A stretch of DNA of 64,000 nucleotides, taken from assembly GCA_021432635.1 (NCBI GenBank), contig MU270029.1:434001-498000 (forward strand), read 5' to 3'. The position numbers were made by a program, and so were the translations under genes. Source of the stretch: Thozetella sp. PMI_491 (taxonomy: Eukaryota > Ascomycota > Sordariomycetes > Chaetosphaeriales > Chaetosphaeriaceae). The notes under the pieces were generated by a model. That model was not told where the DNA came from and did no database searches. It was given only the letters and a program-made list of their open reading frames with translations. Positions 7,541 through 63,299 of this stretch are shown here, in pieces (the stretch's first letter is position 1; every line of letters starts with the position of its first letter).

Positions 7541-7612
7541 GGCCTGCTGGCGCAATGGTAGCGCGTTACTTTCCGGTGGTAAAGGTTGCGCGTTCGAGTC
7601 GCGCGTGGGTCG
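7541..7612 (+). tRNA. tRNA-Arg, anticodon CCG
   Basis: A 72-nt cloverleaf can be folded by eye. The acceptor stem GGCCTGC pairs with GTGGGTC (three G-U pairs). The D arm has GCGC/GCGC closing AATGGTA. The anticodon stem TTACT/GGTAA closes the loop TTCCGGT, giving anticodon CCG at 7573-7575, which reads CGG arginine codons. The T stem GCGCG/CGCGC is perfect with loop TTCGAGT. The body resembles eukaryotic tRNA-Trp and tRNA-Arg(CCG) sequences. There is no intron, and CCA is not encoded, as usual in eukaryotes. Position 7612 is the discriminator base. Confidence 0.93.
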
Positions 7613-7622: not shown

Positions 7623-8846
7623 CTTTTCTTTTTCCTTCCAGATTTGCAGGATATTTTAGTTTCCTTTTGCTTTGTTTCTATCCCATTCACCATCTGGATG
7701 TATAAGATCGTGTTGTTGACATCTTTGACGCTAGCCTTCCCCCTTTTAGATACTAACCTGTCCCACCCAACTGAAAGCCACCACAGAATAACGACATATA
7801 TGCCTTAAGGGAATTGCTTCGTCATTTCAAGATATTAAATCTGGGTTTCCTTCAACACCTTGGCTTTCTAGCCTGGGGTTTAAATTCGAAAAGCTCCGAA
7901 GTCTTGAATCGCATCGGCGGGCTCTAGAAGAAATCTTGGTTGTAACCTTCGCAAGGCGTAGTTTATTTTAGACATGCCATCAACAACTTTTATTCATATT
8001 TTTGAGGCAGCCGGGACTTGCCCGACAAACTTTACAGTGGCTGGTCATATTCCAAGCCGGGCAAACATCATAGGTCACGTTGTTTCACCGAGAACCGCGT
8101 GAGACTAGTGATTAAAGTCAAAAGAAGACAAACAGTCTCGCAGCAAAAATAAGGAAGAGAAGTCGAGAAGGGATAAAAAAAAAAGACATACAACACCAGG
8201 TATTCGCTGGTCGTCACCGACCCAACTACTGATCTAGCTCTCGCTGGCTTGACTAAGGGAGAGCGGACGGGATCCCGTATTTTCCAGTGGATATGGCCGT
8301 ATGTAAAAGGAGAGCCTAAAACTTTGTTTCTATAATTGAGTGTGGTGTGCATGCGTAAGCGACCTAGATTTAACCCTGGCTCGTAATGGTGTTGAGCAGT
8401 TGTACTTGAGACAGTCTTCAGGCTGAGCCCAACTAGTAGCATACCCAAATCGCTCTAGATCTCAGTTATTCTCTATTTCCGATACTTTGTTATAATAATA
8501 ACGCAGTGAGATACTCCTACTATATGTTTTATTCGCGCGCGATACCCTGACCGTGGTCGCTGACTATCTAATAGAGCATTGATAAGGCCTGAATAAATGA
8601 ATCAGGGTAATATGTGCGTATTAGACCGGCCGATCATACATCTAATAAGGTACAGGTGACGGTGTTAGAATGGAAATCAACGCTAGGTATTTACGTTCTT
8701 GTCCGCAAACCAAAACGAGTTTGTGCCGGGCTTACCGCAGCAGCCCTGTAAGTAGGTAACTCTCCAAATTGTCAGAAAATCTCCACAGCTCCAAGGGGCA
8801 TCTCGGACCGATCAAGGTCAGTCGATGAGGCTGAGCATGCTTCACG
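7623..8846. other. Intergenic region, no gene seen
   Basis: About 1.2 kb between the tRNA and the glycosyltransferase 3' end. It holds short open frames only; the 126-codon minus frame at 8068-8448 resembles no family known to me. Composition is moderately AT-rich. Probably 3' flank and spacer. Confidence 0.5.
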
Positions 8847-30181: not shown

Positions 30182-33100
30182 ATGGCGGCATTGCTGGAGG
30201 AGCTTGCGAGCATGCTACATGCCGCCAGTCGCCGAACTTGGGCGACTCTCGTCATCGTCGGCATCGGGACTCTCCTCTTCGCACTCGTCCGGCGCGGCCG
30301 CCTCTGGCGCCAACGAGAAAAGCAGAGATCTTTACCTGCCCATCCCAATCTGCTCCGGGATCCTCCATCGTACAAAAGTTTTTCCCTACGCATCACAGCA
30401 ATCCCAGCTAGCACAACACAAGAGGAGCTCGAGCGCGATCTTGCGTCCATCATCGACGAAGACAGTGACTTAAAGCAGTCCGTCCGTGAAATACATTACC
30501 ACTACCTAGTCCAGCGAGACTCGAACCTTTCTTGCGCGACGGCTACGGTTTCCACGTCCCTTCCGGCAAAGGAGTTGATCAAGAAGTTGAGCCAGGCCTG
30601 CCGCATTAAATCATACCACTTTGATGTGGACTTTTACGGCATCACGCCGCTTTACGAAGATAAAGATGCAGATGTAGAGTGCGTATCCGCAGCTACTTTG
30701 AATGAAGCGAAATCTTTACTGATCTGTTTACTGGAGCAGCGTCATCGCCGTACCCGGCCTGGGAAGCCACGCGATGGGCACGTGGAAGTCCCCGAAAAGC
30801 GACAAAATCTGGCTTCGAGATTTCCTTCCCCACGACATCGCCGGTATCCGAATCTTGGTTTACGGTTACGATACGTCCCTTCTGAATAGTGATTCAAGAG
30901 CTTCGATCGAAGATTTAGGCTCGGGCCTTCTAGCATCGCTCTTAGCCTTGAGAGCGAATACGGTAAATCAGCACCTTGAAGGATGTGTGCTGCGTAAACT
31001 TACGGTACCGCAGGCCTACCGCCCGATACTATTCATCGGTTACAGTTTGGGGGGTTTGGTAGTGAAGGAGGTAAGTATTGAGAGGATTGGTGAGTTTAAG
31101 TAAGCACTTGTTGACTGTAAAATGTCACTCAGACCCTCGTCCATGCCAGCAATAAACCCAATGACCAGCAGTGCCAGAATCTCAGGAAATCTTGTTACGG
31201 GCTACTCTTCTTTGGCGTTCCAAATTTTGGATTACGAAATCCGCAGCTGGTTAGCATTGTCCAGAACAAACCCAACAGGGTACTCGTCCAAGACCTCGTC
31301 GTTGACGATGATTCTGAGCCATCGACATTCCTGAAGAGACTATCCGACCAGTTCGCCGGATGTTGTGGGAATCGGTTCAAGTACAAGATCGTCTCATTTT
31401 ATGAGACGAAGCTTAGCCCTACTGTGGAGGTACGTTCGCGGTTGCACGATCCAGGGAACGTATTCTAATAGTCTATGTGATTCAGATTCAACTAGACGGT
31501 ACCCTGACCAAAACTGGCTCAAAGATTTTCATGGTCACCCAGAAGTCAGCGACTAGTACCGGCTTAACCTCGATTGCTGACGAAGACAATATTGCTCTAC
31601 CCGCCGACCACACGGGACTAGTGAAATACGAGAGTATGGCACAAGAAGAATATTCCATTGTGAAAGAGCGAATCAAGCTGCTTGCAGCGAAAGCAAGGGT
31701 TGAAGTTGGGATTCGGTTCGGACCGAAGTGTATGTAATTAGTTCATAGTCTTGGGAAGCCCATATAAATACTAATTCGCTGTCCAAATAGCCATCCCAAA
31801 CCCACCCAAACCTGATCGTAGAATAATAGAACGCTGCTTGCAATCGCTAGCCTTTAAGGAGATGCATAGTCGATCTCACGAAATAGTCGAACCTTCAAAA
31901 GGGACATGTCAGTGGCTACTCAAGCATGGCGCTTACCAGAAATGGGTCACTGAGCGTGGCTTGCTCTGGATCCGAGGGAAGCCTGGCTCCGGCAAGTCTA
32001 CACTGCTCAAATTTGCTATGAAAAAGGCGGCTCTAGAAACCGGAAACGTTCACTATCCGACCAATGCCTTGGTATTATCTTTCTTCTTCCATGGCCGCGG
32101 ATCGGTCCTACAACGGACACCCCTTGGGCTATTCCGATCGCTTCTATATCAGCTTCTCGATCACGTCCATGATGGGCTTCCTGAACTAGTGAGCAAGTTT
32201 GACCACACCTGCAAGACCATCGGCAAACCTGGTAAGAGCTGGGATTGGCTGGAAGAAGAACTCCAAGAGTACTTCTTGACCTCACTACCCCGAGTGCTCA
32301 AAAAAACCGGCGTCATCATTTTCATCGACGCTGTAGACGAGTGCGGCCAGGCTCCTGCGGTCAAATTAGTGGAATTTTTTGAGCACAGCATCGGGGCCCT
32401 CACCACCGAAACCAATCGCCTAGGGATCTGTTTAGCTTGCCGGCACTACCCCGAATTGACCCTTCAGTATGGATCTACATTGAGCACAGAAGAACAGAAC
32501 AGGGACGATATCGACAGTTATGTACAAACTCAACTTTCCCGACTCAACGCGGAATGGGCACCAACAATTGCCAGCCTCGTTACAGAACGAGCTGCTGGGG
32601 TGTTCATGTGGGCCCGCCTAGTCATGGATGAAGTACAAAAGCTCGTGCTCGAGGGTGCTAGTTTGGAGAATATCAAAACAGCCGTTCGCCGCGTCCCAGA
32701 GGTGCTTGAAGATATATACCAGAACTTGACCCAGGTAATGAGGGGCCAAAGTGATTCACTCAAGCTAGTGCGATGGATCTGCTTTGCTCAGCGCCCATTA
32801 TCTGCGGACGAAATGAGATGGGCAATCGCCGTTGACCCCGATATCCCGCACCAGTCTTTAAAACAATACAAAACCATGGTGTGCGATAAGAAGGCTATGG
32901 AACGACGAGTCATGCATTTAAGCTGTGGGCTTGCGGAGGTTGTGTTATTGGAAAACGCAACGGTCGTCCAGTTCATTCATGAGACTGTCCAGCAGTATTT
33001 CCAAGATACAGGCCTACTCCTCCTCGAGAGACTCTCCGAAAGGGACGGAGTTATGACTAGATTATTTTCAGCAAGGGCGCATTACTCCCTCTCCAGGATA

Positions 33101-34555
33101 TGCATTCGTTATCTGTCTATGAGCGAAATATCTAACACAGCGTACTCTAATCCCGACGACCTGCTGGCCGCATACTCTTTGGTGGAATACGCCGCAAATA
33201 GCTGGATGGTACACGTGAGAAACGGTGAAAGACAGGAGCTCTCACAGGAAAGTCTGCTTGAGGACCTAACTCGTTGTGATTCTTTTGTGGGACTTTTAGG
33301 ATATATTTGGCACCACCATTTGCATCATGAAGAGTCAGGAGAGAGTTTGACACACCTGTTAGCTTTTCATGGCTTAGGAACGCTACTAAAGTGTCTTTTG
33401 AGAAAGCTACACTTTGATGGTCAGGATAGCGCTCTACAAATGCCATCAAAAAGTACAACGACTCTGAAATATGGATGTATCGACTCGAGGAATAAGAGCG
33501 GCCGAAGTCCGCTCTCATTGGCAGCCGATAGGGGGAGAGTAGAGGTGGTTCAGCTCTTGATCGATACTGGCCAAGTTGATATCGACTCGAGGGATGATAA
33601 TGACCAAACGCCACTTTCATGGGCGGCCTACGGCGGAGAAAAAGATGTGGTTCAGCTCTTGATCGATACTGGCCAAGTTGATATCGACTCGAGGGATAAA
33701 TATGGCGAAACACCACTTTCAAAGGCGGCCTCTAGGGGTATAGTAGAGGTGGTTCAGCTCTTGATCGATACTGGCCAAGTTGAAATCGACTCGAGGGATA
33801 ACAATGGCCGAACGCCACTTTTAAGGGCAGCCTCCAGCGGAGAAAAAGACGTGGTTCAGCTCTTGATCAATACTGGCCAAGTTGATATCGACTCGAGGGA
33901 TAACGATGGCCGAACACCACTTTCAAGGGCAGCCTCCAGCGGACAAAAAGACGTGGTTCAGCTCTTGATCGATACTGGCCAAGTTGATATCGACTCGAGG
34001 GATAACAATGGCCAAACGCCACATTCACGGGCGGCCTCTATGAGGAGAAGAGATGTGGTTCAGCTCTTGATCGATACTGGCCAAGTTGAAATCGACTCGA
34101 GGGATAACAATGGCCGAACACCACTTTCAAGGGCAGCCTCTAGCGGACAAAAAGACGTGGTTCACCTCTTGATCGATACTGGCCAGGTTGATATCGACTC
34201 GAGGGATAACTGTGGCCGAACGCCACTTTCAAGAGCGGCCTCTATGGGGAGAAGAGATGTGGTTCAGCTCTTGATCGATACTGGCCAAGTTGATATCGAC
34301 TCGAGGGATAACGATGGCCGAACGCCACTTTCATGGGCGGCCTCTAGGGGAAGAAGAGGTGTGGTTCAGCTCTTGATCAATACTGGCCAAGTTGAAATCG
34401 ACTCGAGGGATAACGATGGCCGAACGCCACTTTCATGGGCGGCCTTCCACGGAGAAAAAGATGTGGTTCACCTCTTGATTGACGTGGGACCAGCTGATAT
34501 TAAATTGAATGGCAATGTAAAATGGAAGCGGCGCTCGAGAGCAGCTAGTATATAG
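30182..34555 (+). CDS. NLR: membrane segment, RRM-like, SesB-like hydrolase, NACHT, ankyrin repeats (5 exons)
   Basis: Predicted 1377 residues: exons 30182-30678, 30740-31070, 31133-31429, 31486-31729 and 31791-34555; donors GTGCGT, GTAAGT, GTACGT, GTATGT, all in phase. Order: a hydrophobic segment (about 20-37, TWATLVIVGIGTLLFALV); a beta-alpha-beta-beta-alpha-beta region (66-158) resembling an RRM/ferredoxin fold; an alpha/beta hydrolase of SesB type with nucleophile elbow FIGYSLGGLVVKE (Ser 268); NACHT with Walker A GKPGSGKST (519-527) and Walker B IIFIDAVDE (632-640); a winged-helix/linker region; ten 34-residue ankyrin units (1020-1359) and a degenerate tail. Fungal NLRs of this plan act in heterokaryon incompatibility and non-self recognition. 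ATG 30182 (CGGAGATGGCG) was preferred; 30053 would add 43 residues. Confidence 0.9.
33479..34498 (+). repeat. Ten tandem 102-bp ankyrin-coding repeats
   Basis: Ten units of exactly 102 bp (34 codons), starting at 33479 and every 102 bp to 34397, each opening with ATCGACTCGAGG. The protein consensus is IDSRDNxGRTPLSxAA, then xxGxxDVVQLLIDTGQVD. Units are nearly identical except at a few codons, mainly just after IDSRD and in the xAAxxGxxx stretch. A half-unit with RSRAASI at the stop looks like a decayed eleventh copy. Such high internal identity is known in fungal NLR repeat domains that evolve by unit exchange. Confidence 0.97.
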
Positions 34556-53295: not shown

Positions 53296-56200
53296 ATGTC
53301 GAAGCCGAGACACACATCCAAAGTCTATCGGCTAAGAGGGCTACCCGGGCACGTTGATAGGCTAGAGGCGGTGGGAATTCTAAGCCGCTCGCTCCAGGAC
53401 GTTGGACGAGACGACATCCACATTCGCTCGCTAGCAGCCGCCGTTGATCCATGGGAGCGACAGCCCACGAGGACGGCGACCTTGACCTTTGAGAAGACGC
53501 CAGCTTTAATCGCCGCTCACAGTGAGCTGGGCGAATGGAAAATCCCGGTCACCGGGCTAGGATCGCCGCTCCTCATCGATACACATTTTTTCGGCCTCAC
53601 TGCATTGAACGATGTTAGCCCCGCTGAGCACAGATATGAGTGAGGAACTTCCCCTCCCCCCTTCTCAATCCCACTCCCAGGCTCTCCGTAGTGAGGCGTC
53701 AATCTGCCAGCTCGCTGAATGTGATCAGTTGCATCGCCATCTCCGGCCTGGCCAGCCATCCCTTTGGATCGTGGCAGCCTCACGGTGAAGACAAGTCCTT
53801 CATGTGGATACGAGATGTCATGCCCAACTACCGGCCGTCGACCCGGTTCCTGGTTTATGGCTACGATACCGCAATGGTAAACAGCCGGTCATTTCAGTCC
53901 ATCCCAGACTTGTCATGGTCCTTGATTTCTGACTTGAAAGCCAACGGTTGGGTTTCACCCACAACCAAGCCTCTGATCTTCCTCGCCCACAGCCTCGGCG
54001 GGGTGGTGCTTAAACAGGCTCTCGTCATGCTGGCCGGGAGTGGCGAAAGGGAAAAGTTCCTGCTGAGCAGAGTCAAGGGGGCCATATTTTTTGGCGTGCC
54101 GAGCACCGGGATGGTGACCTCTCACCTGCTTGCCGTTGTCAAAGATCAGCCCAACCGCACGCTACTCGACGATCTATCAGAAGGGTCGCCGTATTTGCAC
54201 AAGCTAGAAAAGCAGTTTGGTGGTATCTCTTACGATCGGAAGATGCGCTTCTTCTGGGGCTATGAGACCCGGAAATCCCGGACGGTCATAGTGGGTGCAT
54301 AAGTTCCGGGGTGGTTCATACCGAAGCCGATGCTAACACCTAGCAGCGAACACCAGGCGGATCGTACTCAATGTCGGGTCCAGAAGTGGTGCTAGTGACC
54401 AAGGAGTCCGCCACCAAGGGCCTCTGCAGCCTCGAGCCGGCCTCTACCATCCAGTTTGACGAAAGCCATTCTAACATGGTGAAGCTAGGAGAAGGCGATC
54501 ATAGGCTCAGTATCATGGCCAGCAAACTATCCGAGATCGAAGGGGCCGACGGACACAGAGCTGGTCACTTGTCAGACAGACTGGACTTGTCTCTCAATGG
54601 TGGCACTAAAATCATCGATAACAGCGATGTCCTCACAGCAGGTAAAGAATTTCGTGCACAGAATGGCCCTGTCTCCGAGTCGGAGTCTATTCTCGACCCC
54701 ACCATGTGGGACAACCAGGCGGTTCGAAAGTCTTTGCACGCCGCTGAGAGGGATCTACGTCTGGAGCAAATCGTCTCAGCAAAAGGTCACACTTTCGGTT
54801 GGGTCTTTGATGATCCGTCGGGCTTCAGCAAGTGGCTTCAGAAGGGCCAAGGGATTTTCTGGATCAGCGGTAAGCCAGGATCTGGCAAGTCAACCCTGAT
54901 GAAATTCATCTACAATGACCCTCGCACCAATGAGCTCCTTTACAGGTGGGGCTACAAATCAACCCAGATCATAGCCAGCTTTTTCTTCCATCACCGTGGC
55001 AGCGCCTTACAAAAGTCGTTCGAAGGTCTTCTCCGGAGCATCATCAGCCAGATCGTCGAGGCGCAGCCAACATTAGCCAATATTCTGAGCCCAATGCTGG
55101 AACAAAAGCTGCGTGAGAGGGCGAAGACAGAAATAGCCGGGACTCTGAGCTCGGATTTGGTTCTCCTGCTTGAACGCCAGGGTCTAATCATCGAGGAGGA
55201 AATCGAGAACGAAATATCGTCGATGGTGCGGAGCCAGAATACAAGAGCCGAGATCCACAGGATCTTCTGGGATTATTTTAGGAAGCTGGACGATCAGACT
55301 GCACCGACGCGAATCGAAGAATCCTTGATGAGAAACAGGAAGGCCATCGTTGGCTCCAAAGGACCTTACCTGAATGAACTGCTCTCTGATATCTGCAAAG
55401 CAACTATCCCCCTCGAGGATCCTTGCTCGTTCAAGGACCTCGCCCTTTGCTGGAAGGTCAAAATCGACCTGCAAAGCAGGATTTATCACCTCCTTGCGCA
55501 GCAAGGGGTTGATGTCCATGTTTCCGTCGAACGGGAAGTTGAAGACGTCATATACAGGCAGGATAGGAGGGAGGCGTTTCGTGCCACAGCTTACGACCAT
55601 GTTTGGACGAGATCAGCACTTCAAACTGCGCTTTTTGAGATATTCGACCAAACGCATCTCGACTTGGATATCACTCTCTTCCTTGACGCTGTTGACGAAT
55701 ACGATGGCAGGCCGGAGTTCATATCGACCTTTCTGAAAGACCTCGTTCAGAAGCGGTTCCCAAAAACTAGTGTGAGAATCTGCTGTTCGAGCCGTCAGTG
55801 GACTGCGTTCATAGAGGAGTTCAGTGACTATCCTGGCTTCAAAATACACGAACACACCGAGGAAGACATACGACAGTACTCCCTTGTGACAATCGACGAA
55901 TCTCTGCCCGCCGCGGATCTATTGTATGAGCTAGTTCCCGAAATCGTGCAACGAGCCGAAGGAGTTTTCCTCTGGGTGAGGCTAGTCTTGCAGGACCTGA
56001 CGAAGGCGGCGAACACAAACTCTGGAGTAGACCACCAACTTCGCACCCTATTGAGGCGAACGCTCGAATCTCTACCAAACCAGCTGAACGACTACTACCG
56101 AGCGATAATAGAAAGAATCCCAGCAGCTTCTCGCTGGGACACTTACGTTGTGCTCGAATCCATATCGCAATCCTCCTCCACCATGAACATTTGGACGCTG

Positions 56201-57463
56201 ATGGAGGTCATCGAGTGTTCTACTGCTTCCAACCTCGAGGAAGTTCAGCGTAGGGTTGAGAAGATCAGCCGCGCTCCTCAAACACACGCCGAGAACCGGT
56301 TGAGGCTTCTCTCTGGGGGGTTGGTGGAAGTGGTCGACGTGGGACGTGATTGGGGCCTCCAATTGATGCATCAAACGATCAAGGAATTCGTCGAAGACAC
56401 GCAGTTTAAGCACATTGTCCTCGGCAGCCTCGCCAAGATCACCCATGAAAACGGTCACTCATTTCTCTCGAAGTACCACCTTTTTAGCGGAAATTTCGGT
56501 CAAGACTTCTTCTATCATGCCAGAGAAGCCGAAAGGACCACGGGTAGGAGCCAATATCCCGTATTCTCGGGCATCAGCGAATCATTTGTGAGGGAGAGCG
56601 TGAGCACCGCCATCCCCAACGCAAAGAGACACGAAATACGGACCTTACTGGGCGTGGCGATTGTCGCCGGGCTCAGGCAGTATCTTCGGGATGCCGTCTC
56701 GGCCGACAAGCTAGTGTTTCGCAATACCTCGGACAGTCTCATGCGCGCTTTATTTCTCTCCCTCGAGTACGGAGATACATCAGATCAGGATGTAATCGAA
56801 GTGTTCAGGCTTGTCACGGTACATGGATACGTCATTACTCATGCCGAATTAAAGATGCTGCTCAACGCGTTCTGGGCACCGGATTTAAACCAAGAAGAAG
56901 ACCGGGCGTTTTTACCGAACCAGATATTAGTTCCCATTATCTCTATAGTGCTGGGCCAAAATTGGCAGGCGCTTTATGGAGTTGACTTCCTTGACGGCAG
57001 ATATACTGTCGGCACGGCCCTACATCTCAGTCCGCCGCCGGAGGTGGCGGAGCGCTTTCTCACTGGCGGCGGCGATGCAAATGCTTTGACGGAAGACTGC
57101 CGTACGCCGCTGGACTGCCTAGTACATGCGTGCCCCATAATGTCGACTATCGCTGAAATAGTCAACGGAGAAGAAGCCTGTGCATTGGCCTGCGTTCTAG
57201 CCCAGCATGGCGGCTCTCTGCTGAAGGCAAGGCAGGAGCATTGGGATAGTTTTATTGGGGTTCTCCGGGCTCGAGGCGTCGATATCAGCGCCATAGAGAA
57301 GGCGGGTTTACCCCGGTGGCACAACGACCTCGAAGCGTCTCTGTCATTCCAGACGGCTGAGACTGGACCGAAGGCTCCGAGCACTTCAAATATCCCACCC
57401 GGTTCCAAACTGTCAAAGAGAAGCAAGCTCCTATCGTTTCTATCAATGGGGAAGAAACTTTAA
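53296..57463 (+). CDS. NLR: RRM-like, SesB-like hydrolase, NACHT with insertion, ankyrin-like end (3 exons)
   Basis: Predicted 1341 residues: exons 53296-53639, 53729-54290 and 54344-57463; donors GTGAGG and GTGGGT, branch GCTAAC in the second, both in phase. Order: an RRM/ferredoxin-like region (about 8-110, YRLRGLPG ... HFFGLTALN); SesB-like hydrolase with elbow FLAHSLGGVVLKQ (Ser 203) and YGYDTAM; a variable linker; NACHT with Walker A GKPGSGKST (478-486) and Walker B TLFLDAVDE (about 746-754). About 270 residues separate the two Walker motifs, against 113 in NLR-1, so roughly 155 extra residues sit inside the domain. The C terminus has only one or two ankyrin-like units (GTALHLSPPPEVAERFL, RTPLDCL) and a basic tail. 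Same plan as NLR-1 but no membrane segment or repeat array. Likely a recognition receptor. Confidence 0.88.
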
Positions 57464-57743: not shown

Positions 57744-59048
57744 TTAGTCCCCAAACCAACGCCGCAAAAGATCGTTAGTAAAAATGCCGCCGGGGTCGAG
57801 GCTGGATCGGAGTCGTTGGAAATCATGCCAACGAGGGTATAAGGCCGACAATTCGCGAACGCCGAGCGTGTGGATTTTCCCCCAGTGCGGACGGCCCCCG
57901 TGCTTGGAGAAGATTGCTTCAGCCGCGGCGAAATATTCCCGATACTCCATGCCGATGTATTGTTGCACCGAAATCGAGACCGAGTCGCGCTGGTAGAACG
58001 GCGACAGCCAGATGTCATCGGCCGCGACGTACCGGTAGTGGACTGGAAAGTGCAGCAGCACATTCTGACGCTCAATGTACTCGGCAATTTCACGCAGCGC
58101 GTCGGCACCACGAGCAGCAGGGAGTGCGTATTCCATCTCCTGGAACCGCACCAGGCGCGTGGTTACGAAAGCACGGTGCCAGTCGGCGACCATGGTGCTC
58201 TGGTCGCTAGCAACAATCTTGCCGAGGATGCGCGCCAGCGCTGGGGCCCAGTTCGGCTGCATCCGAGCAAGTCTGCAGAGCATGCCAAAGACGCCGTTCT
58301 CCAGGATCAGCTCGACCGCGCTCGTTATCGCCGTGGCCGAGTCTGGGTCGGTTGTCGGGTCCATCAGCCTGACCAGCGTCTGCCGCGTGTGGGGAAACCA
58401 GTAGAACTCGAAGTGGCGATGCTTGCGCGCGAGTTCCGGTGCTTGTGCGAGGCAGTCCTCGAGTTCCATCGCACGCTTGATCACCTTCAGCCTGTAGGCC
58501 GGCAGCAACCGAATATCGAGCGCCGCGATCACGCCGAGCGCGCCGACTGACACGCGTGCTACATCGAATATGTCCGAGTTTTCGGTGGCCGAGCAGTGTA
58601 GCAACTCTCCACTCGCGACCACTAGATCTATGCCGCACACCTGCGTCGAGATGGACCCCAAGGTTGCACCCGTGCCGTGCGTGGCGGTCGATGCCGCTCC
58701 GGCAAGCGTCTGACTGTCGATGTCGCCGAGGACAGTCATGCCGAGGCCGCGCTGCGCTAGCTCCGACCCGAGCCGCTTGAGTGTAGTTCCAGCGCGGATC
58801 CGCGCGATATCGCCATCAACGCGCTCGATGCCATGGAGGGCCTCTAGGCTGAGTAACGTGTCTGTGGTCTCTACTAGTGGCGTAAACGAGTGGCCACTGC
58901 CAATCACCCGCAGCTTGCCCTTGCGTGCTGCAACGGCACGGATGAGTTGCTGCAGTTCGTTAAGCGACGCTGGCGCTGCGAAGCGCTGCGGCGTGAAGCG
59001 GAAGGCTTTGGACCAATTACGCCAGGGTTTACCCACAATCTTGGTCAT
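57744..59048 (-). CDS. Bacterial-type sugar-1,4-lactone oxidase (VAO family)
   Basis: Single exon, 434 residues, ATG 59048. The N-terminal PCMH FAD domain has the aldonolactone-oxidase signature VIGSGHSFTPL, followed by VLGDIDSQTLAGAASTATHG. The C-terminal ALO domain ends with the HWxK signature (GGRPHWGKIHTLG) and LDPGGIFTND. Such enzymes oxidise L-gulono-, D-arabinono- or related lactones to ascorbate-like products; bacterial members often act as dehydrogenases. It is intronless, GC-rich and lacks the C-terminal Cys-rich or membrane features of fungal mitochondrial ALO, and it reads more like actinobacterial or proteobacterial proteins. The aldolase/racemase-like gene lies 750 bp upstream on the same strand. 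The pairing resembles mycobacterial Rv1771 and Rv1769, which supports transfer of a bacterial module (inference). Confidence 0.9.
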   Translation of the reverse strand: MTKIVGKPWRNWSKAFRFTPQRFAAPASLNELQQLIRAVAARKGKLRVIGSGHSFTPLVETTDTLLSLEALHGIERVDGDIARIRAGTTLKRLGSELAQRGLGMTVLGDIDSQTLAGAASTATHGTGATLGSISTQVCGIDLVVASGELLHCSATENSDIFDVARVSVGALGVIAALDIRLLPAYRLKVIKRAMELEDCLAQAPELARKHRHFEFYWFPHTRQTLVRLMDPTTDPDSATAITSAVELILENGVFGMLCRLARMQPNWAPALARILGKIVASDQSTMVADWHRAFVTTRLVRFQEMEYALPAARGADALREIAEYIERQNVLLHFPVHYRYVAADDIWLSPFYQRDSVSISVQQYIGMEYREYFAAAEAIFSKHGGRPHWGKIHTLGVRELSALYPRWHDFQRLRSSLDPGGIFTNDLLRRWFGD

Positions 59049-59794
59049 ATCTAGTGTCGAATATGTAAAAGTATCTAGGGACTGAGCTTATCCATACTTG
59101 AAAACATAACCTACTGTTGTTGCCATCCAAAGGGGAGGCTGCTGGGCAGGCCAGGCCAAGCTGGCACGGCCGAAATCCTGACCTGCAGGGGACGTTCGAC
59201 TTTACCCAAATGCGGTTATGCACGTGGTAAGCTTCAACTTGGGGTGCCTGCCCTTTGGGGGTTGCTAGGTGTTTACTAGGGATGCACTATGCATGATGAT
59301 AGCTCACGATGTTACCTAGTGGTGGCGGCTTACAAAGTGTATGTGCCATGTTGTCGAAGATGCGGGGCTGGGCCTACGACAACATAGTCCTACCGTAGGG
59401 TTCCGCCGCTGCCGTTCCAACCGCACACACATAGAGCCGTTTAGCGAACTAATCGCTCTCTATACGTGGATATTAGGCCCGCAGAAACGTCAGTAGGTGG
59501 TTGTGTTTCTTATATTGCTAACTACCCTTGGAATAGAGACTAGTGCAATTTTCATCGAATTTCTAGCGACGGAGCCAATCCCTGCCGTTGGTAGATCTGA
59601 AAGTTCGGGTTGAATATGGACCGCGTCTCACGCTGGTCGTATTCTCCACGTTTCCTCCACCTGTTATGGATTCGGTCTTGTTGGCGAACTGGTAAAGGGT
59701 ATGGTAGGGATATCTTTCCTCTTAGGGGTGTACAGGCCTGGTTAAGCCGACCAGCTCTAGGTTCGCAGGCAGGTACCAAGAAAGAGAAGTCCTA
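59049..59794. promoter_or_regulatory. Gap between the two bacterial-type genes
   Basis: About 745 bp, clearly less GC-rich than the genes on both sides and holding no gene. It must supply the promoter of the lactone oxidase, since eukaryotes do not normally translate operons. If the pair came from an operon, this spacer was added or expanded after transfer. Confidence 0.5.
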
Positions 59795-61012
59795 TTAAAA
59801 AAAATTCTGCTGCTGCCCGCGATACGTGGGTACGATGCCAACGATCTGCGTGCCGCGGAATAGCAGTACGTGGTCGAAGTGCTCGGCGAGCTCCCCCCCT
59901 TTTGCGTGGCGGAAGAAGAGCGGATCGCCGAGTGCAGGCTGAAAGCCGACCGGTAGTCGCAGCGGTGTCTGCACTTCCCCGGCGCCTTCATGAGAAAGCA
60001 TCTGCATGCCAGCCGGCAGGAACGGGCGTGGCAAGCGGTCACGCCCCGCAGGCCCCGAGGCGATGTACCCACCGCCGGCACAGGCCACCAGCCCTGGCGC
60101 GGGCCGGCGGACCACAGGTAGCGAGAAGAAGGCGCAGGCTTGATGACGGAAATGGCTGAAGTGATCGAACAACCCCGGAGCATAGAGCCCGGAGCCAGCC
60201 GTAGTCTCGGTGACGCTGGCATCCGCAGCCGTGGCTTCGAGGCTCCCCGTTCCACCGCCATTGACAAATTCTAAATTGTGGCCGTCGGCGTGTAGGGCGG
60301 CGACGACACTCTGCCGGCGCCCCTGGACCTCACGCAACGAACGCCGCTTAAGCAAGCGGATCAGCACGTTGCGTATCCCCCCGCCGGGCACGTGGTCCTG
60401 GAGACCAGCGATCTGAGCCTCGTAGCCCATCATGCCCACGAGCTGCAGCGCATCCGGGGCGGCAGCGATCTGCTGCGCGAGCTGTCGCGCCGCGGGGACG
60501 TCGCGGACCGGCGAGCGCCGCACGCCGAACCAAAGGCCGGGCAAGGAAGTCGACATGTCCACGTCCATCGCGACGCGGTAACGCACAGAGTGGGCGCGCG
60601 CCTGTGCAACGATGCGCTCGCACTGTTCGACGCTATCGACCATCAGCGTCAGGCGTTTGCCGTCGCGAATCGCGTCGGCGGCGGCGGCGAGATCGACTAC
60701 ATCGACTGTCGGATAAGCGACCAGCAGGTCATCGAAGCCTTCGCGCGCGAGCCAGGCCGCTTCTCGCGCGCTGTAACAGAGAAGGCCCTGGAACTGCGGT
60801 GACAGCGCGAACACGCGACGCAAGATATCGGTGCAGCGGATGGACTTGGTGCCAAGTCGTATGGGCATCCGCCCTGCGCGCGTCAGCATCGCATGCGCGT
60901 TGGATTCGAGCCGATCGAGGTCTACCAACATCTGTGGAGATGCCCGACCGGCGACAACTTGCTTCAACTGCCGGTAGTAGGCATCGCCATCAGTCTGGGA
61001 CTGAGCACCCAT
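59795..61012 (-). CDS. Bacterial-type PLP-dependent aldolase/racemase-like protein (D-threonine-aldolase family)
   Basis: Single exon, 405 residues from ATG 61012 (the open frame begins two codons earlier with TTG). The N-terminal alanine-racemase-like TIM barrel begins ASPQMLVDLDRLESNAHAML and carries the PLP-lysine region MPIRLGTKSIRC. Barrel strands follow (LLVAYPTVDVVDL, RYRVAMDVDMS, QLVGMMGYEAQIAG, LEFVNGGGTGSLE). The C-terminal beta domain ends AKGGELAEHFDHVLLFRG with the His-x-Asp-type metal site of D-threonine aldolases/D-serine dehydratases. Bacterial relatives are annotated amino acid deaminase/aldolase. Intronless and very GC-rich, directly beside the AT-rich fossil block. With the downstream lactone oxidase it keeps the order known in mycobacteria. 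Substrate unknown. Confidence 0.88.
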   Translation of the reverse strand: MGAQSQTDGDAYYRQLKQVVAGRASPQMLVDLDRLESNAHAMLTRAGRMPIRLGTKSIRCTDILRRVFALSPQFQGLLCYSAREAAWLAREGFDDLLVAYPTVDVVDLAAAADAIRDGKRLTLMVDSVEQCERIVAQARAHSVRYRVAMDVDMSTSLPGLWFGVRRSPVRDVPAARQLAQQIAAAPDALQLVGMMGYEAQIAGLQDHVPGGGIRNVLIRLLKRRSLREVQGRRQSVVAALHADGHNLEFVNGGGTGSLEATAADASVTETTAGSGLYAPGLFDHFSHFRHQACAFFSLPVVRRPAPGLVACAGGGYIASGPAGRDRLPRPFLPAGMQMLSHEGAGEVQTPLRLPVGFQPALGDPLFFRHAKGGELAEHFDHVLLFRGTQIVGIVPTYRGQQQNFF

Positions 61013-61239: not shown

Positions 61240-63299
61240 AAATATGCGAGTATTTGCTACAGGGTGAGTCTAACTATTAGGAGCGTGATACGGGGGAAAT
61301 CGTAAAACGGAGAAGGCTTAAAACTAGATATTATTTACGTTAAATATGTGTATCGCTTAAAACATGTCCAATTAAATATATTTTGGCTTGGGTAGAAATT
61401 TGGCAGGGAAGTTTAGGGTATATCGTAAATATAGTTACTGTTGGTTAGTATTACGAGATCTCGGTACTGTAAAACAAACAAACGTAAAACAACTGGGTAA
61501 AAGATCCTCTGTATTGGTATATGTCTAGATATGTTCTCTATAAGCTAAGTTAACTGCTCGAACAAGCCCCTAAATAGCCCTCAGCTGATCATGTGACTCT
61601 CCGCATTAGATCGGCTATAGTCCAATCAGAGCTTGTCAGAGCTCTGGATCCTCCATACTAGATCGAGCAACACTACAAACCCATGATCTAATACAGGCTC
61701 TCTTTTCTTTTCGTAGCGCTTGACTAAATCACTTAAAACAGCTTATTAAAAGCGTTTTATTCTAAAAATAGTATACTAAGCTCTTACATGATCACTGCTT
61801 TGTTATATAGCTCTTTATACGCTCCTTTAAGCTCTTAATAGTAAAACAGCTGCTTTATAGGAAAAGTAGGAAACAATAAGAATAATAGGAATAATAAGTA
61901 ATAAACAATAATTGTAAGGACAGTAGGAAAATACTCTCAAATCAGCTACAACTACTTCTATAATTATATAAGGGACTATTTTACCAGCTTACTACATTAT
62001 TTTTACCCCTTTTTTTTTTAGCCTTAATAATAACTATAGCAGTAATAACAACAGTAATAATAACAGTAAGATCACTCGATTAGTTACTAGTGTTTTTAGG
62101 ACTAATAGAGTGCTATTAGATAATAAACCAATATTTATCATACCTCCTAAGCGTGATAAGTGCTTATAAGCTTTTAGTTGTATAGTTATAAGTACTAACG
62201 AGTAGTGTAGTGGTTAAGAAGAAAAAGGCTACTGCTAAGGGTGGTCGGTGCTTTGCTTATAATACTGGGCACGCTCTATACGATTAGAGTATAACTGGCT
62301 TAGCTTATAAGAGCTAGTGCCTGCCCTGCTTAAAGAGCGCCCTTATAGGTAAGGATAACGGGTATAACTACTATAAAGATCCTAGCTATAGTAGTAACTA
62401 TTGCTTTTACTATGCCTCTAGGCACTCTTATGTTGCTGTATATAATCCTTTAAGCTTTTAAACTATGATTGGGTGTGCTGATTATATATATAGTCTAGTA
62501 ATTGCCTAGGCTATTGCTAAGTGGTTCTTGTATGTGTTTGTGGTTGATACCAACCCTTTAATAAGTAGTATATACGTTTGTATACTTTAGTGCTTTATTA
62601 ATTGGCTAATTAGTACTTAGGAGAGTAACTATTAGCGCCCTGTAGTTAGGGGGTTGCTATACTTAGCTGAAGAGGGGGAGGAGAAGGTAGCTATAGAGGC
62701 TATGATAGAGGAGGAGAGGGCTACTACTGGCTAAAGGGCCTTTACCTGGCTTAGCGTGCTATTGTTCCTACCCCTGTGAGATTATTGTTGTTTTATTTTT
62801 AGTGTTTAGGGTAGTATTTTACTCTTTTCTAGTTGTTAGGGGACACGTCCCCCTGAATTAATCTTATACGCTCTATGTGTTTTCCCCTGCTCTCCTAACT
62901 ACTCTCCTGTGCTTCCCTTATACTCTCCTTTATATTCCCTTCCCTAACTCTTCTTCTTTCTTAAGAGTGTTAGACCTAGCCTTTAATATAAAATAAAGCT
63001 TTATTTATTGATATAAGTGCTTTTAATATGTTATTAGGTGCTTCTTTAGTTATTGTATTGGCTGGATTGTTGTTTCTGTTTATCCACCTGATTTTAGTGA
63101 TCTTATAAGCTTTATAAGACTGTTTTAAAGCTATAAGATCGATTATAAGGCACTTTTCTACTGTGCTTCCTAATTATACTAAGCATTAATACAGCAAGTA
63201 TAAATCTATACAGACTATTAGCTCTAGAGCTTTTATCTATAGGTAATTACAGATCGTTCTAAGTATATAGTTAAGTATATAGCTAATATTAAAGCTAGA
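61240..63299. other. AT-rich, RIP-like repeat fossil DNA
   Basis: About 2 kb of strongly AT-rich sequence with no usable reading frame and many TTATAAG, AGCTATA and CTTATA words, typical of duplicated DNA that has been through repeat-induced point mutation. A GC-richer island (62640-62760) and a GGGGACACGTCCCC palindrome (62849-62862) stand out. Probably part of one or more dead elements; the family cannot be told here. Confidence 0.6.

Follow-up and report, generated by a model that had tools for sequence, protein, structure and literature searches.

A gene pair of probable Hydrocarboniphaga-type operon origin in the filamentous ascomycete Thozetella sp. PMI_491

Can a piece of a bacterial operon enter a filamentous fungus in a single step and persist there as two fungal genes? 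The question is raised by two adjacent genes, here called A and B, on a contig of Thozetella sp. PMI_491, for which the initial annotation of the window (the whole stretch of 64,000 nucleotides analysed here) proposed the transfer of one bacterial operon piece. As far as the accessible text of PMC11708051 and PMC13376923 extends, side-by-side transferred operon pieces are much less described than single bacterial genes. At this locus one can read the donor genus, the gene order in the donor and the arrangement now found in the fungus, and so it becomes testable how an operon piece is turned into two fungal genes, where the spacer between them originated and whether an active site changes after the move. 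Our analyses indicate that the pair very probably derives from a Hydrocarboniphaga-type B-A operon stretch, acquired in a single event by the Thozetella sp. PMI_491 lineage and kept as a pair; both genes seem to have arrived jointly and to have gained fungal features since, and one presumed active site has changed.

Structure, setting and composition of the pair

The locus comprises the following features, with positions counted in the window.

54371-57463, plus strand: final portion of a NACHT-like fungal gene (Pfam PF24883)
57744-59048, minus strand: gene A, ALO-family FAD-linked oxidoreductase (subfamily TIGR01679), 434 aa
59049-59794, minus strand: spacer from the end of B to the start of A, 746 bp, GC 50.4%
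59795-61012, minus strand: gene B, fold-type-III PLP enzyme with an alanine-racemase-like N-terminal domain, 405 aa
61013-61438, minus strand: region upstream of gene B, presumed promoter of B, GC 42.7%
61439-61691, no strand assigned: LTR-like repeat, right boundary of the pair, with a second copy elsewhere in the host

Each gene runs from ATG to stop in a single uninterrupted frame with zero internal stops, B being transcribed first and A second. The adjacent, co-directional and intronless arrangement described initially is therefore confirmed, with both ORFs intact on the minus strand, save that the spacer, given there as 745 bp, counts 746 bp. No further in-frame ATG is present in the 238 nt upstream of the gene B start. 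To the left, the NACHT-like gene is convergent with gene A, 280 bp separating their stops, and its full-identity database entry, carried by a contig of 1,241,779 bp, is from Thozetella sp. PMI_491. To the right, the second copy of the LTR-like repeat (G000:C15:502568-502820) has the same orientation and matches at 94% over 250 bp; from position 61418 onwards the repeat has 40 other matches listed in the host genome, this copy included. The pair is thus integrated in a fungal chromosome, flanked on both sides by host sequence within one 1.24-Mb contig.

Presumably the spacer supplies gene B with its 3' end and gene A with its promoter. A second copy of the spacer was detected neither in the host genome nor elsewhere in the window, and comparison with the bacterial loci gave nothing significant (one 23-bp blastn match, E 0.14, and zero tblastn matches). 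A motif scan, read as raw counts without a chance level, returned some splice-like words and two ATTGG/CCAAT-type words, and no TATAWA.

Both genes had been judged to look bacterial partly because they are GC-rich and lack introns. The GC content is 60.7% in gene A, 64.7% in gene B and 50.4% in the spacer, and among 13 hand-picked host ORFs it ranges from 49.7 to 64.0%, A lying within this range and B just above it; since host ORFs reach nearly equal values, high GC is a weak sign of foreign origin. Intronlessness is also weak evidence, because the host's own ALO-like homologue (L002) is likewise one uninterrupted ORF, of 553 aa. As proof of bacterial origin, GC and intron absence were rejected; the origin itself stands by homology.

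In codon usage, both genes fall outside the range of the donor ORFs: the mean ln(host/donor) is +0.139 for A and +0.133 for B, with reference values of -0.127 to 0.613 in 13 host ORFs and -0.272 to -0.123 in 14 donor ORFs, one host ORF (-0.127) being as donor-like as the least donor-like donor ORF. GC3 is 0.722 and 0.736 in the pair, against 0.851-0.895 in six donor copies.

Bacterial relatives, gene order and mode of transfer

Gene A matches Pfam ALO (7.6e-72) and FAD_binding_4. It passed the NCBIfam model TIGR01679 'FAD-linked oxidoreductase' (408.3 bits, cut-off 292.25) and failed TIGR01678 'sugar 1,4-lactone oxidase' (237.9 bits, cut-off 396.8), so that the oxidoreductase family holds, whereas the original label of lactone oxidase is too specific. 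Gene B matches Pfam Ala_racemase_N (3.8e-10) and failed the BhcC equivalog model (60.7 bits, cut-off 690).

The best identities of the two proteins to Hydrocarboniphaga, a gammaproteobacterial genus, are 77% (A) and 73% (B), and among the matches listed no relative of either exceeds 77%. No fungus occurs among the named rows of the 119 best other matches of protein A or B, many further rows carrying no name, and a control search with the neighbouring fungal gene found the database rich in fungal proteins, those of PMI_491 included. The same protein database search named no such pair from related fungi among the best matches. Close relatives of both A and B lie on contigs of 60749, 9342, 7184 and 104828 bp, as judged from equal contig sizes in the two match lists, that of 60749 bp being confirmed by reading of the locus.

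In the tree of gene B the window protein falls within a set of 11 rows, the named ones all belonging to Hydrocarboniphaga (SH-aLRT 99), and in that of gene A within sets of 8 and 12 rows (98 and 99). The concatenated tree places the pair inside Hydrocarboniphaga (100/100), with a Hydrocarboniphaga sp. group (95/90). A grouping of the window with Nevskia was rejected (p-AU 3e-50), and a position outside all six Hydrocarboniphaga rows was only just rejected (p-AU 0.045); nesting inside rather than beside the known members of the genus is marginal. The end branches of the window proteins are long (A 0.47, B 0.27). Separate phylogenies and protein searches, both among the checks that the initial annotation had proposed, lead to the same bacterial genus for both proteins, with zero named fungi among the best 120 matches listed.

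In three Hydrocarboniphaga genomes B and A are adjacent, less than 100 bp apart and in the order found in the fungus, the locus reading TetR-like gene, B, A (TetR from ORF reading), which bears out the earlier proposal that the two families are neighbours in bacteria; the Mycobacterium genes Rv1769/Rv1771 may be a parallel. A ceramidase-like gene follows A in Hydrocarboniphaga and a TonB-receptor-like gene is also a neighbour (names from ORF reading); for the ceramidase-like protein the host has just a remote match, located on a different contig, with 27% and 42% identity in two parts. Within the taxonomic order of the donor, B was found in 11 of 85 genomes, with a close A adjoining in 10 of the 11. 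Measured between match ends, the B-A gap in those 10 genomes is 41-108 bp in nine and 889 bp in one, which lies outside Hydrocarboniphaga; a long spacer could therefore in principle predate the transfer. Among B loci from species genomes, the flank fetched contains a relative of A in 42 of 80, and at 29 of those 42 (hand count) A is directly downstream of B on the same strand.

A single donor genus and equal gene order in the donor support the single transfer of an operon piece proposed at the outset. An operon stretch with the adjacent PLP enzyme (B) and FAD oxidase (A) would have entered the fungal lineage once, after which the gap would have grown in the fungus from less than 100 bp to 746 bp, each gene coming under a promoter of its own, codon usage would have moved closer to the host pattern, and the two reading frames would have been kept, probably by selection.

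Other accounts of the locus fare less well. That the fungal assembly was contaminated with bacterial DNA or wrongly joined into a chimera would fit the lack of fungi among the named relatives listed and the finding of the pair in one strain only, and is nonetheless extremely unlikely, because the 1.24-Mb contig has host sequence to either side of the pair (on the left the convergent fungal gene, at a distance of 280 bp, and on the right the repeat with its 40 other listed host matches) and codon usage is beyond the range of the 14 donor ORFs; furthermore, a spacer of 746 bp with 50% GC is out of keeping with the donor genus and no listed relative exceeds 77% identity. It is highly improbable that the genes arrived by two independent transfers or by way of another fungus. 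The longer branch of A (0.47, against 0.27 for B) would suit the former, and the latter has a precedent in the fungus-to-fungus secondary spread of bacterial D-amino-acid enzymes recorded in the accessible text of PMC5169069, but both genes share one donor genus and keep its order and strand, and the intermediate fungal copy expected among the best matches is not named there. As for expression, the common strand and order of the two genes, and the observation that yeast can be induced to translate a bicistron (PMC11952965, accessible text), are compatible with B and A on one bicistronic fungal transcript; this is improbable, given a 746-bp spacer where the donor genus has gaps below 100 bp, and given that polycistronic transcripts are normally untranslatable by yeast according to the same text.

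Active sites and the state of the two enzymes

In gene A, His53 (GSGHS), the presumed covalent-flavin histidine, is present in 117 of 117 homologues. By alignment, Gly108, at the oxidase gatekeeper position, corresponds to residue 113 of the A113G GalDH chain 8qnc, and Arg339 and Lys391, both kept in 117/117 homologues, correspond to GalDH residues 388 and 456, in a segment that is weak alone (i-E 0.026). In the accessible text of PMC11099136, Gly at GalDH 113 together with the flavin-linking His is a mark of oxidases, Arg388 and Lys456 have a catalytic role and Glu386 hydrogen-bonds the ligand. Gene A has His337 aligned with this Glu386 of plant GalDH, where all 117 aligned homologues have Glu; E337H is unique among the 118 aligned sequences, and its codon (CAC, against GAA, GAG and GAG) implies two base changes. 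The literature searched contained nothing on alditol oxidase Glu320. Two further changes, N106V and G122A, fall in columns conserved in 114 of 117 other sequences. Whether the two proteins are altered at conserved columns to an unusual extent overall was also considered, and such an excess was rejected, other sequences equalling or exceeding them: changes affect 6 of 80 columns in A (a number reached by one other sequence) and 6 of 121 in B (a number exceeded by two others). When only the Hydrocarboniphaga-like rows are compared, changes affect 38 of 263 columns in A, against 39 in the next most divergent row, and 12 of 205 in B, against 17 in another row.

Lys56 of gene B, the presumed PLP lysine, is invariant in 20 of 20 aligned sequences. 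The profile alignment of gene B with BhcC and D-threonine aldolase structures ends before the C-terminal part, in which the D-threonine aldolase type has a metal site that we take to be H-x-D or H-x-C; the letters SHVD in 4v15 match the H-x-D form. In gene B, H369-A370-K371 is invariant by eye in 20 sequences, within a C-terminal part unaligned to 4v15, and the second ligand would be absent.

The predicted substrate of B is a D-amino or beta-hydroxy-amino acid, bound as a PLP Schiff base. A is predicted to be a covalently flavinylated oxidase that would abstract a hydride from its substrate, a polyol or an aldonolactone-like compound, and deliver the electrons to oxygen, giving H2O2. Physiologically, the two may together make up a small catabolic step by which the fungus uses an unusual source of carbon or nitrogen.

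Window-specific changes at codon positions 1, 2 and 3 amount to 0.123, 0.071 and 0.427 in A and to 0.070, 0.063 and 0.372 in B, and neutral simulation left a stop-free frame in 11% of runs for B and 0.75% for A. NG86 estimates between window and donor (dN 0.17-0.29, dS 0.94-1.36) are near saturation and of little use. Since there is no fungal sister copy, changes before and after the transfer are inseparable, and the data therefore set neither the transfer date nor selection in the fungus.

The E337H change suggests, from sequence, an altered substrate pocket or early decay. That A is a decaying passenger, its frame open and its enzyme dead or nearly so, would agree with the uniqueness of E337H among 118 sequences, with N106V and G122A at columns conserved in 114/117, with the hydrogen bond of Glu386 to the ligand in GalDH (PMC11099136, accessible text) and with more first-position window-specific changes in A (0.123) than in B (0.070). 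Decay is nevertheless unlikely, with 434 codons free of stops, a third-position excess and His53, Gly108, Arg339 and Lys391 all kept; its 6/80 conserved-column changes are high, yet one other sequence equals them. We put forward more tentatively than the transfer itself the possibility that the bacterial oxidase was re-tooled after its arrival for a new substrate, beside the host's own ALO-like gene: two base changes would have turned Glu into His, with the flavin-linking His, oxygen gate and catalytic Arg and Lys retained, and the locus would then combine operon transfer into a filamentous fungus with active-site innovation.

Comparison with known systems

Transfers of bacterial operons to yeasts have been described for siderophore (Kominek et al. 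2019, Cell) and thiamine salvage (Goncalves and Goncalves 2019, PNAS) genes, both as cited in the accessible text of PMC13376923; operon transfer from bacterium to fungus is thus already known and the present pair would be a further case. A bulk prokaryote-to-fungus survey reported 20,093 genes in 750 of 829 genomes, from 8,815 events (PMC11708051, accessible text), and transfers of D-amino-acid enzymes, alanine racemase included, from bacteria to plant-associated fungi are recurrent (PMC5169069); the accessible main text of the latter names no Thozetella, D-threonine aldolase or D-serine dehydratase. The literature searched, mostly main texts of openly accessible papers, contained no report of the A-B pair, nor of an operon of D-serine dehydratase-like and lactone oxidase genes. 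Among the papers found on Thozetella, one concerns benzenediol lactones and another a secondary-metabolite cluster.

Gene A has the same fold as GalDH 8qmy (TM-score 0.88 by query length) and alditol oxidase 2vfr (0.80 by query length). Like GalDH and the alditol oxidases (8qmy, 2vfr, 8ot8) it has the oxidase-type Gly, the Arg, the Lys and the flavin-linking His; unlike them, and at 21-27% identity, it has His at the Glu386 equivalent. Gene B has the same fold as BhcC (D-3-hydroxyaspartate aldolase, 6qkb; TM-score 0.78 by query length) and D-threonine aldolase 4v15 (0.77 by query length), with both of which it has the PLP lysine in common, and its identity to the ten best structure chains is 20-22%. 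With the alanine racemase of PMC5169069 it shares the N-terminal fold.

According to the survey of PMC11708051, fungi commonly carry bacterial genes; here two operon neighbours stand side by side, whereas the words operon, adjacent, Thozetella and Chaetosphaeriales are missing from the accessible main text of that survey. As in the yeast cases (PMC13376923, accessible text), genes of one bacterial operon lie together in a fungal genome as eukaryotic-style genes; unlike in yeast, the recipient is a filamentous ascomycete (Sordariomycetes), two genes are found and the donor is Hydrocarboniphaga-like.

Families and layout of the gene pair

Genes A and B stand side by side on one strand of the window, much as the initial annotation had described them, between a fungal gene and a repeat:

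54371-57463, convergent with gene A: fungal gene left of the pair, a full-identity Thozetella sp. PMI_491 entry on a contig of 1,241,779 bp
57744-59048 (-): gene A, 434 aa, intact open reading frame without introns
59795-61012 (-): gene B, 405 aa, intact open reading frame without introns
61439-61691: repeat right of gene B, within a repeat region from 61418 on; second copy in the same orientation on the same contig (G000:C15:502568-502820)

In the direction of transcription B precedes A, with a spacer of 746 bp between them, not the 745 bp first reported. Gene A is a member of the ALO family; its score of 408.3 bits passes the cut-off (292.25) of the FAD-linked oxidoreductase model TIGR01679. 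The name 'lactone oxidase' is narrower than this allows, since A reaches 237.9 bits with the sugar 1,4-lactone oxidase subfamily, below its cut-off of 396.8. Gene B has the alanine-racemase N-terminal fold; its sole NCBIfam match is the D-3-hydroxyaspartate aldolase BhcC, at 60.7 bits far below the cut-off of 690. Its predicted structure (mean pLDDT 85.3) best matches D-3-hydroxyaspartate aldolase and D-threonine aldolases at 20-22% identity, and its presumed PLP lysine, Lys56, aligns with a lysine of the host's D-threonine-aldolase-like protein, an alignment which leaves out the C-terminal part of B. Enzymes of the D-threonine aldolase type carry a C-terminal H-x-D motif. In its place B appears, by eye, to have H-A-K, invariant in 20 aligned B sequences. 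The unaligned C-terminus and H-A-K mean that aldolase identity is not established.

Relatives in Hydrocarboniphaga and other bacteria

Protein searches retained the best 120 rows for each gene, its own row included, and among those of the 119 other matches that carry a name, as many do not, there was no fungus for either A or B. A control search with the left-hand fungal neighbour listed many fungal proteins by name, and so serves as a positive control for this absence. Among the matches listed, identity reaches 77% with B and 73% with A. Of the rows that have a name, the closest to both genes come from Hydrocarboniphaga (75% and 71%), together on a contig of 60,749 bp; three more contigs, of 9342, 7184 and 104828 bp, each appear to hold close relatives of both genes, to judge by matching lengths in the two lists.

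Separate phylogenies, which the initial annotation had proposed alongside the protein search, likewise support the bacterial origin that it suggested. In the B tree (57 rows; outgroup, the host's own D-threonine-aldolase-like protein) the window's copy belongs to a set of 11 rows (support 99), where it stands beside seven of them (88). In the A tree (63 rows; outgroup, the host's own ALO-like homologue) it falls in sets of 8 rows (98) and 12 rows (99), several placements being possible within. All identifiable members of these sets are Hydrocarboniphaga. A concatenated tree of 19 rows places the window's pair inside Hydrocarboniphaga (100/100), next to a Hydrocarboniphaga sp. group (95/90). 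An alternative topology that groups it with Nevskia is rejected (p-AU 3e-50). One that sets it apart from all six Hydrocarboniphaga rows is rejected by a narrow margin (p-AU 0.045), and because this is marginal we place the origin within or beside the members of the genus known so far.

Gene order in Hydrocarboniphaga effusa is TetR-like, B, A, ceramidase-like, TonB-receptor-like (flanking names read from the reading frames), where B and A are 11 bp apart; two more genomes of the genus have the TetR-like gene, B and A, and a fourth has a close A and no close B. At E 1e-60 or better, B was found in 11 of 85 genomes of the order and some A relative in 50. A close A adjoins B in 10 of the 11, with 41-108 bp between match ends in nine (41, 71 and 91 bp in three Hydrocarboniphaga genomes). 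The remaining one, a Nevskiales locus at G042:C4:37691-41039, has 889 bp, against less than 110 bp elsewhere. Among 80 B loci from species genomes, the best 80 of at least 592, an A relative (1e-20) lies in the flank of 42, some loci stopping at contig ends. It is directly downstream on the same strand in 29, further downstream in one, upstream on the same strand in three and on the opposite strand in nine. On these counts the pair is a widespread bacterial module, of which the window carries a piece in the usual order. At five Actinomycetota loci (L082, L083, L088, L094, L095) the A relative is divergent from B, with match starts 143-289 bp apart, so that the pair also persists back-to-back.

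Residence in the host genome

Codon usage was scored as ln(host/donor) per codon, with 13 picked host reading frames (leave-one-out) and 14 from Hydrocarboniphaga. Genes A (+0.139) and B (+0.133) lie outside the donor range (-0.272 to -0.123), which just touches that of the host (-0.127 to 0.613). GC3 is 0.722 in A and 0.736 in B; six donor copies range from 0.851 to 0.895 and the host frames from 0.515 to 0.898. This host-ward shift suggests that both genes have spent some time in a fungal background.

Changes specific to the window, scored where three Hydrocarboniphaga copies agree, fall on codon positions 1, 2 and 3 at 12.3%, 7.1% and 42.7% in A and 7.0%, 6.3% and 37.2% in B. The skew recurs, at lower levels, when bacterial copies are scored in this way. 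Neutral simulations with the observed number of changes gave a mean of 4.5 stops in A (0.75% of runs stop-free) and 2.2 in B (11%). These results favour constraint on both genes, perhaps exerted partly in the bacterial donor lineage; since part of the branch may predate transfer, the signal is no proof of use in the fungus.

Thozetella belongs to the Chaetosphaeriales within the Sordariomycetes. The host assembly comprises 72.3 Mb in 157 contigs, of which G000:C15, the one that holds the window, is 1,241,779 bp long. The two repeat copies, 7.1 kb apart, share 94% identity over 250 bp (15 mismatches) and resemble the paired LTRs of a retroelement; from 56 candidates, 40 other matches, the second copy included, were scored in the assembly. 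The DNA around the unit is AT-rich, each kb from 61 kb onwards having a GC content of 29-38%, and further reading frames lie beyond the repeat. A search of the host genome gave no second nucleotide copy of A, B or the spacer, and the homologues that the host has of its own are only distantly related (30% and 25% identity). Contamination is unlikely, given the fungal gene and the host repeat on either side and the drifted codon usage.

Elsewhere in the window, a NACHT-like reading frame (31838-34555, +) has C-terminal ankyrin-type repeats nearly identical among themselves (read from sequence), recalling fungal NLR-like genes with fast-changing repeats. A tRNA gene (7541-7612, +) and a single 5S rRNA gene (8185-8304, -) lie less than 1 kb apart.

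The active site of gene A and the proposed transfer

The predicted structure of A (mean pLDDT 87.8) best matches plant galactonolactone dehydrogenase (GalDH) and alditol oxidases. Positions 337, 339, 391 and 108 of A align with GalDH 386, 388, 456 and 113, the C-terminal segment being weak alone (i-E 0.026). The account of GalDH in PMC11099136 describes Arg388 and Lys456 as stabilising the substrate alkoxide and Glu386 as hydrogen-bonded to the ligand, and marks oxidases by Gly at position 113 and a flavin-linking His. Arg339, Lys391, Gly108 and His53 are all retained in A, whereas the counterpart of Glu386 is His337 (E337H, two base changes); all 117 aligned homologues have Glu there (117 of 119 listed, two below 400 aa dropped). 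Other rare changes are N106V, G122A, K227R, H362Q and A397V. No general excess of changes at conserved columns was seen: A has 6 of 80, equalled by one other sequence, and B 6 of 121, exceeded by two. As these counts are not extreme, the case for a changed active site rests on the place of E337H.

Most likely, the fungus took up a single piece of a bacterial operon, which integrated at a site that a retroelement now adjoins and turned into two fungal genes, presumably with promoters and expression of their own. The two enzymes are expected to serve one catabolic step. A would be a flavin oxidase that makes H2O2, its predicted substrate a polyol or a lactone-like compound; B would be a PLP enzyme whose predicted substrate is a D- or beta-hydroxy-amino acid. 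According to PMC5169069, D-amino-acid enzymes have often been transferred to plant-associated fungi, and PMC13376923 describes two operon transfers in yeasts; the Thozetella pair fits these known patterns of transfer.
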